NCBI RefSeq assembly: GCF_004346225.1
Contig: NZ_SMAJ01000003.1
Coordinates: 124,001-188,000, forward strand
Length of the DNA: 64,000 nucleotides
From: Paralcaligenes ureilyticus
Lineage (GTDB): Bacteria; Pseudomonadota; Gammaproteobacteria; Burkholderiales; Burkholderiaceae_B
Direction: 5' to 3'
Part shown: positions 23,779 through 37,082 of the stretch, piece after piece
Layout: each line of letters begins with the position of its first letter
Numbering within the stretch: the first letter of the stretch is position 1
Made by a program: the position numbers and the translations under genes
The notes under the pieces: generated by a model
The model's database searches: none
What the model was told of the DNA's origin: nothing
Seen by the model: only the letters and a program-made list of their open reading frames with translations

Positions 23779-23873
23779 GGCGGGCCCCTTCGCATGGTTC
23801 GGCGGTGAACCTGGTCAGGTCGGGAACGAAGCAGCCATAGTCGCTTAGGATCAGTGCCGAAGTCAGGCTCGCC
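23779..23873 (+). ncRNA. ffs: 4.5S RNA of the signal recognition particle
   Basis: Small SRP RNA of about 95 nt. The 5' end GGCGGGCC pairs with the 3' end GGCTCGCC over eight bases (one G-U). The apical part has the conserved Ffh-binding sequence: GGTCAGGTCGGGAACGAAG with GCAGCC following. A T-rich tail (TTTTCTTGTTTT) right after the stem is the terminator. It guides membrane-protein targeting together with Ffh and FtsY. A position just before dnaX is common in betaproteobacteria. TTAAAC at 23764-23769 may be its -10 box. Confidence 0.93.
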
Positions 23874-23978
23874 TTTTCTTGTTTTAGCCATGTTTGGCTT
23901 TCAAATACCCCCCAAGTCCGCCCGAATCCGGTAAACTTTTCGTTTCACCCGCGGTAATTCTGGGGTTCATACTCTCGC

Positions 23979-34252: not shown

Positions 34253-35020
34253 ATGAGTCCCGTGACCCGCGTTTTTATCACAGGGGCGAGCAGCGGCATC
34301 GGCGCTGCGCTGGCGGCGGTTTACGCGCAGCGCGGGGCGCAACTGGCCTTGTTGGGGCGCCGCCAGGACGCCTTGCAGGCGTTGGCGGATTCGTTGCCCG
34401 GCGAACACCGGATTTATGCGGTCGACGTGCGGGACCGCGCCGCCTTGCATGCGGCGGCAGCCGATTTCCTGGCTGCAGGCGCCGTTGATGTGGTGATCGC
34501 CAGCGCGGGCATCAGTGTAGGCACTTCGACGGAATATCCCGATGATTTCGAGGTGTTCGAGTCTATTATTGCGACCAATCTGAACGCGACCGTATCCACC
34601 TTTGAACCCTTTATCGCTCCCATGAAGAAACGCGGGCGTGGGTGTCTGGTGGGTATTGCCAGCGTGGCTGCGGTGCGAGGCTTGCCGGGGGCCGGCGCTT
34701 ATAGCGCATCCAAGGCGGCCGTGAAGAGCTATTGCGAAAGCTTGAGGGTCGAGTTGTGTTTATCGGGCGTCAAGGTCGTGACCCTGGCGCCGGGCTTTAT
34801 CCGTACGCCGATGACGGCAGGCAACCCGTACAAAATGCCTTTCCTGATGCCGGTCGAACGCTTCGCCCAGCAGGCGGTTCGGGCGATCGACGGCGGCGTT
34901 TCCTATATCGTGCTGCCTTGGCAGATGCGCTGGGTGGCGCGTTTGCTTGCGCTCGTGCCCAATCGTCTGTACGACTATCTGGCGGTGCGCCGGCAGCGTA
35001 AACCCAGACAAGTGCGCTGA
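34253..35020 (+). CDS. SDR family oxidoreductase
   Basis: 255-residue short-chain dehydrogenase. Glycine motif TGASSGIG (10-17), SAGI (84-87), Ser137, Tyr150 and Lys154 (YSASK) are present. The C-terminal part after 200 is hydrophobic and basic (YIVLPWQMRWVARLLALVP then RRQRKPRQ), resembling the membrane-associated SDRs (DltE/YqjQ-like) rather than soluble FabG. It lies 25 bases after carB and could be transcribed with it. Substrate unknown. Confidence 0.82.
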   Translation: MSPVTRVFITGASSGIGAALAAVYAQRGAQLALLGRRQDALQALADSLPGEHRIYAVDVRDRAALHAAAADFLAAGAVDVVIASAGISVGTSTEYPDDFEVFESIIATNLNATVSTFEPFIAPMKKRGRGCLVGIASVAAVRGLPGAGAYSASKAAVKSYCESLRVELCLSGVKVVTLAPGFIRTPMTAGNPYKMPFLMPVERFAQQAVRAIDGGVSYIVLPWQMRWVARLLALVPNRLYDYLAVRRQRKPRQVR

Positions 35021-35028
35021 TAGGTTTT

Positions 35029-35053
35029 GTAGCGGCAGCCCTTGTGGCTGCCA
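35029..35053 (+). repeat. Short palindromic repeat, copy H (AG version)
   Basis: Starts GTAGCGGCAGCCC, arms GGCAGCC and GGCTGCC. Eight bases after the SDR stop, so it would sit at the 3' end of the carAB-SDR message. Confidence 0.85.
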
Positions 35054-35087
35054 TCGTGGCGATTACGTAACCGTGGCTGGAACATAC

Positions 35088-35166
35088 GTTCAATCCCCGC
35101 GTCGTGGGTGCTTACCGCGTTCGACTATATGCCGCGTATCGTGCCGGTTCAATCCCCGCGTCGTGG
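35088..35166 (+). repeat. Direct repeat pair next to the nested palindrome
   Basis: A 20-base sequence beginning GTTCAATCCCCGCG occurs at 35088-35107 and 35147-35166. The first is followed by GTGCTTA, like the right end of the nearby palindrome read backwards; the second runs into the palindrome's left end. It could be a remnant of a second element end. Confidence 0.6.
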
Positions 35167-35387
35167 CCGCTTAAGGTAGTTCGGGCTCCGACGTGCCCGG
35201 TTCTGGCTGCGCCAGAACTTCCCGCGCGAATGAACTGCTTCGGGGCGGCGTGCGAACTCGTGGGGCGATCAGTCCACTGGACTGATCGCAAACGTCCCAC
35301 TCAAACAGCGCACGCCTTGCATCCCCGAAGCAATTCATTCGCGCGGCGTGCCCGAGTCGCCCGCCCTACCTTAAGCACCCACGCCGC
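35158..35387. mobile_element. MITE-like nested palindrome of about 230 bp
   Basis: The outer ends are imperfect inverted repeats of 22 bases (three mismatches) with an exact GCTTAAGGTAG core at 35169-35179 and its complement at 35366-35376. Inside are arms of 23 bases with one mismatch (35223-35245 and 35323-35345), a GCGTGCG-type pair, and a perfect central palindrome with 11-base arms (35266-35288). The left arm has an extra hairpin (GTTCTGGC, TGC, GCCAGAAC). It contains no credible gene. The structure fits a non-autonomous element; no transposase or clear target duplication was seen. Together with repeats H-K it fills the 730-base gap between the SDR and the permease gene. Confidence 0.65.
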
Positions 35388-35402
35388 TACCACTGTTGGA
35401 AA

Positions 35403-35427
35403 TGGCACCCACAAGGGGTGCCGCTAC
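35403..35427 (-). repeat. Short palindromic repeat, copy I (AC version)
   Basis: Arms GGCACCC and GGGTGCC, loop ACAAG, then GCTAC. It begins 16 bases after the nested palindrome ends and starts an alternating run I, J, K (minus, plus, minus). Confidence 0.85.
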
Positions 35428-35478
35428 AAAAGCCTTGACGTTCACGGCGGTATCGACAAAAACGTACCCGTCAATTAT

Positions 35479-35503
35479 GTAGCGGCAGCCCTTGTGGCTG
35501 CCA
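35479..35503 (+). repeat. Short palindromic repeat, copy J (AG version)
   Basis: Starts GTAGCGGCAGCCC. Middle member of the alternating run; it carries the AG stem version while both neighbours carry the AC version. Confidence 0.85.
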
Positions 35504-35549
35504 CCCTCCCATGGTTCAAATTGCCCGTCTGGATGATCGACGTTGCGAA

Positions 35550-35574
35550 TGGCACCCACAAGGGGTGCCGCTAC
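35550..35574 (-). repeat. Short palindromic repeat, copy K (AC version)
   Basis: Arms GGCACCC and GGGTGCC, then GCTACAAAAAC, the same flank as copy I. About 177 bases before the permease start; the stretch in between shows no gene. Confidence 0.85.
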
Positions 35575-35750
35575 AAAAACGGCATCTACAACAGCATCCA
35601 CAAAAACCTTGCCGCCCAGCCAGTGCAAAACGTACACTTTCGCCTTTGGCCAATCCATAAGCTTTCTTTAGTCGACCCGTAAACTCGCTGCGGGAGGACG
35701 ACCCATGGAATCCTTTTCGCCAACACATAAACTCTTTTAAAGGCTACAGC

Positions 35751-37082
35751 ATGTCGGATTCGTATTTTCCCCGTTGGGCGCCGGTGCAAAGCGGTGTTTC
35801 AGGGCTGGTGGTGCAGCCCGATGAACGTTTGTCCTGGCCGCAAAGCGTTGCCATGGGGGCGCAGCACGTCGTCGCCATGTTTGGCTCGACCATCCTGGCG
35901 CCATTGTTGATGGGTTTCGACACCAACGTCTGCATTTTGATGTCAGGTATAGGTACGCTGATATTTTTCCTGTTTGTAGGAGGGCGGGTTCCCAGCTATC
36001 TGGGTTCGAGCTTTGCCTTTATTGGCGGTGTCATCGCCGTGACGGGGTACGCCGGCGCGGGCGCCAATGGCAATATGGGTGTGGCGCTGGGGGCGATCAT
36101 CGCCTGTGGCTTTGTGTACACGTTGATAGGCTGCCTGGTCTGGTGGCTTAATGTCCGCTCCGGCGGGGCGGCTGACTGGATCGACGCCTGGATGCCGCCG
36201 GTGGTGACTGGGGCGATCGTGGCGGTCATTGGGTTGAATCTCGCGCCGATCGCGGCCAAGGGCGCTATGGGAGGCAGCACTTTCGAGGCATTGATGGCGC
36301 TTATGACCGTGGTATGCGTGGGCGGAGTCGCGGTATACACCCGTGGCACCGTGCAGCGTTTGCTGATCCTGGTGGGCTTGTTGCTGGCTTGCGTAGTGTA
36401 TGGGTTATTGACGAACGTGCTGGGTTTTGGGCATCCGATCGATTTCAATGGCGTGGCAGCCGCCCCGTGGCTGGGCCTGCCCCGATTCCAGACCCCTGTG
36501 TTCAACGTCCATGCCATGAGCGTCATCGTGCCGGTTGCGGTGATCCTGGTGGCGGAAAATCTGGGGCATATCAAGGCGGTGAGCGCCATGACCGGCCAGA
36601 ATCTGGATAAATACCTGGGCCGCGCCTTTGTGGGCGATGGAGTGTCCACGATGATTTCCGGCGCGGTGGGCGGCACCGGGGTGACCACTTATGCTGAAAA
36701 TATCGGCGTCATGACGGTAACGCGAATCTATTCCACCCTGGTGTTTGTCATTGCCGCGCTGATTGCGATTGTGCTGGGGTTTTCGCCCAAGTTCGGCGCC
36801 CTGATCCAGACCATACCCGGGCCGGTTCTGGGGGGCATGTCGATTGTGGTGTTTGGCCTGATTGCGGTGGCCGGCGCCCGGATATGGGTGGTGAATCAGG
36901 TCGATTTCAGCGATAACCGCAACTTGATCGTGGCGGCGATTACCTTGATTCTGGGGGCCGGCAATTTTTCGGTCCAATTTGGTGCGTTCAAGTTGGACGG
37001 CATAGGCACGGCCACCTTCGGCTCCATCATTTTGTATGCTTTATTGAAAATTGGCAGCCGGCCTGTTTCCAAAATTGAATAA
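35751..37082 (+). CDS. NCS2 family nucleobase permease (uracil/xanthine type)
   Basis: 443-residue membrane transporter with about 14 helices of the UraA/RutG/xanthine permease family, which moves a nucleobase with protons or sodium. Typical parts are WPQSVAMGAQHVVAMFGSTI in helix 1, SYLGSSFAFIGG in helix 3 and AENLGHIKAVSAMTG with TYAENIGVMTVTRI in the substrate site. Uracil seems the better guess because carAB (pyrimidine synthesis) is near, but xanthine or thymine cannot be excluded. It lies between carB and greA, an unusual insertion in this conserved block. Confidence 0.87.
   Translation: MSDSYFPRWAPVQSGVSGLVVQPDERLSWPQSVAMGAQHVVAMFGSTILAPLLMGFDTNVCILMSGIGTLIFFLFVGGRVPSYLGSSFAFIGGVIAVTGYAGAGANGNMGVALGAIIACGFVYTLIGCLVWWLNVRSGGAADWIDAWMPPVVTGAIVAVIGLNLAPIAAKGAMGGSTFEALMALMTVVCVGGVAVYTRGTVQRLLILVGLLLACVVYGLLTNVLGFGHPIDFNGVAAAPWLGLPRFQTPVFNVHAMSVIVPVAVILVAENLGHIKAVSAMTGQNLDKYLGRAFVGDGVSTMISGAVGGTGVTTYAENIGVMTVTRIYSTLVFVIAALIAIVLGFSPKFGALIQTIPGPVLGGMSIVVFGLIAVAGARIWVVNQVDFSDNRNLIVAAITLILGAGNFSVQFGAFKLDGIGTATFGSIILYALLKIGSRPVSKIE

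Follow-up and report, generated by a model that had tools for sequence, protein, structure and literature searches.

The hairpin described here can be set beside several known kinds of bacterial repeat. Elements of the Correia type and those related to IS630 are bacterial MITEs with a TA target, and the ends of IS200/IS605 elements carry subterminal hairpins that are recognised as single strands. As described in the passages cited, the REP, BIME and REPIN sequences associated with RAYT are intergenic palindromes that bear a GTAG tag and alternate in orientation (PMC2817692, PMC3116915, PMC8266576, PMC3733652), REPs being 20-40 bp (PMC3733652); integron attC sites are long hairpins of which one strand is active and in which some bases stay asymmetrically unpaired (PMC2727003, PMC3053210, PMC6393395); and BoxC, the intrastrand triplex motif TM-ECO, is a repeated, intergenic, structured DNA in unstable surroundings (PMC4666352).

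We examined a hairpin of about 230 nt in a 64,000-nucleotide stretch of the Paralcaligenes ureilyticus genome (the window), and it shares properties with each of these systems while differing from all of them. Like the TA-target MITEs it is a dispersed non-coding repeat, and a sister family has terminal inverted repeats (TIRs) and TA, but the window family itself shows neither a TIR nor a duplication. The GTAG tag and alternating orientations of REP systems belong here to adjoining REPs, whereas the intergenic palindrome itself is ~230 nt long, with a side hairpin, a cross-genus apical module and no RAYT found in the genome. It resembles attC in its long hairpin with asymmetric unpaired bases, and a related tip caps one member of an attC-like array in another genome (G557); however, its ends, read by eye against the consensus, show no R' or R'' boxes, and its copies are dispersed rather than in cassette arrays. 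It differs from IS200/IS605 ends in that no Y1 enzyme was found in the genome and no insertion sequence accompanies it, and the BoxC/TM-ECO pattern given in PMC4666352, CCCTCNCCC..GGGNGAGGG, is not the core of the window family. The element occurs as dispersed intergenic copies, its structure covaries, its apical module is shared between genera, and its presence differs between relatives. On this evidence the window hairpin may well be a copy of a non-autonomous, non-coding mosaic repeat amplified in its lineage, made up of a ~230-nt hairpin among GTAG-type REPs and usually placed at the 3' ends of genes, that is recognised as folded single-stranded DNA by an unlinked factor.

The window hairpin and its copies

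The window holds a near-complete inverted repeat in which nested arms lead up to a perfect terminal palindrome and the left arm bears a side hairpin; its features are as follows.

35158-35387, minus strand: giant hairpin, ~230 nt, basal arms 35158-35186 and 35359-35387; within the own genome, folding of the minus strand has the better support
35265-35289, no strand assigned: terminal hairpin, a perfect 12+12 palindrome whose sequence changes block-wise between copies with pairing kept
35200-35218, no strand assigned: side hairpin of the left arm, in which two adjacent pairs switch together between copies (24 versus 13 of 37)
35236-35331, minus strand: apical core common to Alcaligenaceae (model R1, 112 bits)
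35254-35260, minus strand: conserved loop side GAACTCG (CGAGTTC on the minus strand)
35300-35307, minus strand: conserved loop side CTCAAACA (TGTTTGAG on the minus strand)
35317-35322, minus strand: asymmetric bulge TTGCAT, partly conserved (2 of 6 positions vary between copies)
35088-35114, plus strand: partial second end, a direct repeat of 35147-35173, absent from the family consensus
35025-35054, plus strand: left REP-like hairpin with GTAG tag
35402-35431, minus strand: right REP-like hairpin, opposite in orientation to the left one
35475-35503, plus strand: REP-like hairpin
35549-35578, minus strand: REP-like hairpin

The basal arms are 83% complementary over 29 nt and include an exact 11-base stretch (GCTTAAGGTAG/CTACCTTAAGC), and the inner arms (35222-35245 and 35323-35346, 24 nt) are 96% complementary. 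The outer ends, inner arms, perfect central palindrome and extra left-arm hairpin reported in an earlier, sequence-only reading are thereby confirmed, and the four short repeats it placed in the same gap are the REP-like hairpins listed above. Its description of a near-complete inverted repeat holds for the nested arms but not for the region near the tip, which is asymmetrical and contains three asymmetric internal loops. The second partial end that it proposed is a genuine direct repeat (27 nt, 93% identical, at 35088 and 35147), but the copy at 35088 lies outside the family consensus, and similarity to other copies begins at or near 35148, not 35088. At L128, L131, L161 and L051, as at 35088/35147 in the window, the outer ends of the hairpin look partly duplicated in direct orientation, adjoining the element. 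As DNA, the minus strand of 35148-35387 has a folding energy of -98.4 kcal/mol (z -13.6), and as RNA one of -156.1 kcal/mol (z -11.4); none of 200 shuffles was as stable in either case. The hairpin is flanked by genes for a short-chain dehydrogenase (34253-35020, plus strand) and a xanthine/uracil-type permease (35751-37082, plus strand); elsewhere in the window there is a bacterial small SRP RNA (23779-23876, plus strand, 79.5 bits).

The own genome (4.37 Mb in 37 contigs, 99.28% complete) holds this non-coding repeat in at least 40 places including the window (40 scored of 89 candidates), 37 of them nearly full-length and 3 partial, with two of the partial copies at contig ends. A search for further copies thus returned 39 other places among the 40 scored, 80-92% identical to the window query. 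The core model matched at least 59 places at E ≤0.001 (150 of 1819 candidates scored), a count that includes at least one sister copy and several partial copies. Since core-model matches reach the first or last base of seven contigs (C4, C6, C8, C13, C18, C20 and C24), the true copy number may be higher. Forty loci were fetched, 38 were laid out on both sides, and 37 entered alignment A1, which omits L064 and L066 (cut by contig ends) and L065 (whose right half diverges). No two of the 37 aligned copies are identical, and the median identity is 90% (range 68-97%).

All 40 copies lie outside genes called by our simple codon-usage gene caller. Among the 37 copies with both neighbours called, 22 lie between convergent genes, 14 between co-directional genes and 1 between divergent genes, and the co-directional neighbours read either strand of the element (9 +E+, 5 -E-). 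For comparison, nearly the same caller gave 6 convergent, 6 divergent and 33 co-directional pairs among the 45 adjacent gene pairs of the window, or 4, 3 and 10 among the 17 with gaps of at least 100 bp. A linked mobiliser gene was sought by clustering the open reading frames within 2.5 kb of copies, at up to 129 loci with a motif match, and none was seen: the recurring clusters listed comprised reading frames that cross the element and, by our reading, transporters, binding proteins and dehydrogenases.

Covariation, loops and the probable folded strand

When A1 was analysed with RNAalifold, 78 pairs were obtained, 32 of which showed changes on both sides in at least one copy. Mispairs on the plus strand were A.C in 48 cells (22 pairs) versus G.T in 7 cells (6 pairs), and this A.C excess corresponds to wobble on the minus strand, favouring minus-strand folding; 28 of the 48 A.C cells lie in the outer arms. 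The core model R1 was built from 19 sequences of several genera, and the core keeps four helices across genera. In A2, a cross-genus MAFFT alignment of 19 sequences from several genera for which we drew the structure, 22 of 31 pairs were doubly changed, a value reached by none of 500 shuffles. In A3, which contains 94 matches (80 distinct), 29 of 31 pairs were doubly changed and 97.1% of cells were paired, again with 0/500 shuffles reaching the observed values, although the A3 counts lean towards structure because that alignment was fitted to the model. The strand bias is weak in the A3 core (21 versus 14). The copies are related, and copy counts are therefore not independent. Arm-to-arm copying during replication could yield covariation without selection, but it would not by itself keep asymmetric loops.

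Loops account for 15 of the 24 invariant columns in A2, and on the minus strand the invariant loop bases comprise an ATGCAA-like bulge, TGTTTGA opposite GAGTT, and ACGNTT. This conservation is partly selected for, since a motif holding loop bases served to find 14 of the 19 rows of A2 and the strict pattern used on the collection likewise holds them; the five other rows retain CAAGG, CTGTNNGAG and CGAGTT. Within the own genome the loops of the core are no more invariant than the stems (17 of 32 loop columns versus 27 of 54 stem columns). The TGAG and CGAG flanks would allow tandem sheared G.A pairs.

These properties could also belong to a structured RNA read from the minus strand, such as a 3'-UTR stabiliser, a terminator-like element or a small RNA, that has been multiplied for its function. 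Covarying stems with conserved internal loops across genera, the one-strand wobble bias in the own genome, and the convergent placement of 22/37 copies compared with 6/45 window pairs (4/17 with gaps of at least 100 bp) are all consistent with such an RNA. However, G.U pairs make up only 21 of 2217 standard pairs on the folded strand in A3 (~0.9%) and 48 of 2866 in A1 (1.7%), compared with 21 of 211 (10%) in a set of ten tRNAs from Alcaligenes segments that was not de-duplicated. Neither the element nor 17 wider-group loci gave an Rfam match at gathering score, and the sub-threshold matches fall on REPs or on the terminal palindrome. In addition, co-directional neighbours read the element on either strand, and the inverted pairs of cores found in other genomes (see below) are hard to explain by a single transcript. 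We therefore regard an RNA as the less likely possibility, and continue with the reading of the repeat as folded DNA.

Relatives, comparable sites and the sister family

The strict core pattern was found in 62 stretches of a collection of 84,980 species, 57 of which had a model match at E ≤0.01; the other five (L144, L148, L165, L172 and L181) lacked an R1 match and were discarded as chance hits. Carriers named to genus are Pigmentiphaga, Parapusillimonas, Alcaligenes, Verticiella, Pollutimonas, Pusillimonas and Candidimonas, and the remainder are Alcaligenaceae bacteria or MAGs with less precise names. Apart from the own genome, 12 of 60 relatives have the unit or core by DNA similarity, and the single match outside the family sits at the E limit. 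In a sample of the order, R1 matched 6 of 250 genomes, namely the own genome and five weak ones (30-43 bits), in a search that was insensitive, with 16 candidates scored per genome. With an earlier core pattern, matches were obtained in 16 of 300 order genomes (6 for the reversed control) and in 8 of 398 phylum genomes (8 for the control); its matches outside the own genome were taken as chance, those printed showing no paired stem by eye. Viral contigs gave no match to the core pattern, and plasmids gave none to the window element, a sister copy or a relative from genome G594. A literature search by tip-motif sequence and on Alcaligenaceae repeats found no paper on the element; PMC2267715 mentions new families in bordetellae in general terms.

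Many cores in other genomes are single. Where two lie within 1 kb of each other, their starts are 272-718 bp apart; of 24 distinct pairs, 23 have the same inverted arrangement and one is direct. No close pair occurs among the 59 core-model places of the own genome. The two-hairpin units of Pigmentiphaga kullae (L152) and a related MAG, 67-32 (L142), are alike over 684 bp (86%), linker included, while their flanks do not align. Among the Pigmentiphaga and related-MAG units, a GGCTGAATCG-like end motif adjoins TA in four copies, as judged by eye.

Comparison of sites in relatives showed that presence of the element differs between them. In 11 relatives, homologues of the dehydrogenase and permease lie within ~1.4 kb of each other, several with an intervening gene by eye, and none has the core between them, which is weak evidence in that these relatives are of other genera. 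The only genome of the same genus in the 60-relative sample (G001; Candidimonas MAG FW021_bin.53, Alcaligenaceae, 82% complete) is without the window hairpin, and its flank retains a degenerate REP at that point by eye. Instead, the site holds a different hairpin, AAACTCGC..GCTCAAACA, inside a ~520-bp sister element with the ends TAGAGCATTTTTGG and CCGAAAATGCCTTA. These ends lie on two contigs overlapping by 120 bases inside the repeated hairpin, and we joined the contigs on the basis of this overlap and of synteny with the own genome. At the corresponding point the sequence of the own genome is continuous (CCGTGGCTGGAACAT, with TG where G001 has TA), and its window site is thus the other state of this site. 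At one gene boundary Alcaligenes faecalis AU14 has a copy that is missing from the corresponding boundary in two relatives; in one of these, other sequence is found instead. The apparent empty site of the SORT26 pair in A. pakistanensis was rejected, being a deletion remnant with one arm lost, and absences can accordingly be deletions. The outcome that would have refuted the sequence-only reading, namely no further copies and no empty sites, was thus not observed; presence differs between relatives, but no clean insertion of the window family was seen among the sites compared.

The sister family has the TIR TAGNGCATTTTYGG, TA on both sides and a hairpin with a related tip. It occupies nine places in the own genome, and at three of these (L322, L323 and L324) both ends are seen, each next to TA. 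Short direct repeats (GGTATTTGGCTGGACG-like) lie near one end of sister elements (C97/C47 of G001, that is L285 and L262; L322-L330 of the own genome). With a TIR and TA at both ends and its other state known, this sister family has the properties of a TA-target MITE.

Could the window hairpin then be an ordinary MITE, moved by a DDE transposase acting on short terminal repeats, with the hairpin passive or protective? The window family does have many dispersed non-coding copies, a sister family with a related tip has the TIRs and flanking TA, a sister element occupies the window site in G001 opposite the other state in the own genome, and the TA beside the GGCTGAATCG-like motif of the Pigmentiphaga-type units would fit as well. 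Because the sister family is MITE-like, the hairpin could be a passive MITE passenger. However, no separate TIR was seen in the window family, the arm inverted repeats running on into spacers and REPs, and no target-site duplication was found by eye in the flanks of 38 copies or between the window and G001, for a unit whose outer ends are indistinct. Moreover, a passive hairpin need not keep its loop bases across genera, even allowing that loop conservation was partly selected for. A DDE-moved MITE is therefore unlikely, and since ends and duplication were not found we do not class the element as a MITE. The label MITE applied in the sequence-only reading survives as regards dispersed non-coding copies, but no TIR with target-site duplication was found that would support its strict sense, while its broader wording, a non-autonomous transposon or an undescribed structured element, stands in that the sequence is repeated (39 further places), structured and, given the presence differences, possibly mobile.

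Adjoining REPs, the hairpin tip and a proposed factor for folded DNA

The copies are closely associated with REPs. A REP core lies within 150 bp to the left of 36 of 38 copies, in a single orientation and 51-69 bp away in 29 of them, and within 170 bp to the right of 35 of 38, in either orientation; away from the copies, the same loci contain 19 REP cores in 106 kb. The window hairpin has its left REP core 110 bp away, a distance that the second partial end, with its offset of 59 bp, would explain. The GTAG tag is visible in the consensus, and the adjoining REPs are GTAG-tagged short palindromes, but no such tag was seen by eye at the ends of the giant hairpin itself. This proximity raises the idea that REP/BIME units spread by a RAYT (Y1) transposase carry the giant hairpin as a hitch-hiker. 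Against it, Y1_Tnp had no match in the own genome (99.28% complete), and was found in 6 of 39 other genomes and in only 2 of the 20 core carriers among these, some of which are incomplete MAGs. Spread by RAYT is thus very unlikely, and with 18 of the 20 other core carriers also lacking Y1_Tnp, RAYT is disfavoured as current mobiliser and Y1/RAYT proteins are unlikely to be the recognising enzyme today. A chance palindrome or decayed sequence, which could claim nothing beyond the irregular left end, is refuted by the fold scores (z -13.6 and -11.4) and the 40 places in the genome.

The tip of the hairpin has a wider distribution than the element. Among the genomes examined, 11 have hairpins capped by a related tip, TGTTTGAG-stem-CGAGTT, and 10 of the 11 do not belong to the family. 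A search of 299 genomes of the phylum gave the motif TGTTTGAGCG-N(0-30)-GCGAGTT in 20, compared with 2 for the reversed control; G594 has 25 occurrences and the own genome 9. Of the 12 flanking bases, 8 or more are complementary in 18 of the 30 tip loci fetched; these 18 come from 11 genomes, and 0 to 11 of 200 random placements per locus do as well. The other 12 loci fall short of this level, and several are probably coding chance. Folding was carried out on 21 of the 30 loci, chosen by us. In G557 (L297, 878-972 and 1462-1554) the tip motif sits on one of two or three repeats ~580 bp apart with ends TTAACA..GGCGTTA, which we take to be an integron attC array, and a neighbouring member of this attC-like array has a different tip. 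A hairpin in G560 also has attC-like ends by eye, and it is not among the repeat copies listed in its locus. In several of L295, L296, L301, L304, L310 and L313 a pyrimidine-rich hairpin follows the capped one (e.g., TTTTCTTT..GGTTACTTTCTTTT..AAAGAAA), and such hairpins could form an intrastrand triplex. The short form of the tip, GCGNAGC, resembles by our comparison of sequences the stable DNA mini-hairpin GCGAAGC. One speculative possibility is that single-stranded DNA hairpins of unrelated elements share a transferable cap, namely the tip TGTTTGAG-[stem, often GCGNAGC]-CGAGTT, which would be recognised by a common factor or would nucleate folding; this cap would then span REP mosaics, TA-target MITEs and an attC-like site, within the own family, in further families of the order and in further orders of the class.

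Returning to the mosaic repeat recognised as folded DNA, we propose that the minus strand would act as a folded single strand, more likely of DNA than of RNA. By analogy with REPs, IS200/IS605 ends and attC sites, its apical module and loops may be recognised by an unlinked trans-acting enzyme or host factor, and this recognition would let the element spread. The likeness to REP and attC hairpins would lie in a foldable strand with unpaired marks; we class the element as neither, because a RAYT in the genome and R boxes were looked for and not found. Together, the data suggest a large structured intergenic repeat that was not described before.

Recognised hairpins of this kind may explain spurious conserved 'hypothetical proteins' read across them, as well as breaks in short-read assemblies, with core matches standing at the ends of seven contigs here. 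If the apical module is indeed a recognised single-strand hairpin, this would point to the existence in many Proteobacteria of an enzyme or host factor, outside the RAYT and integron systems, that acts on folded DNA.
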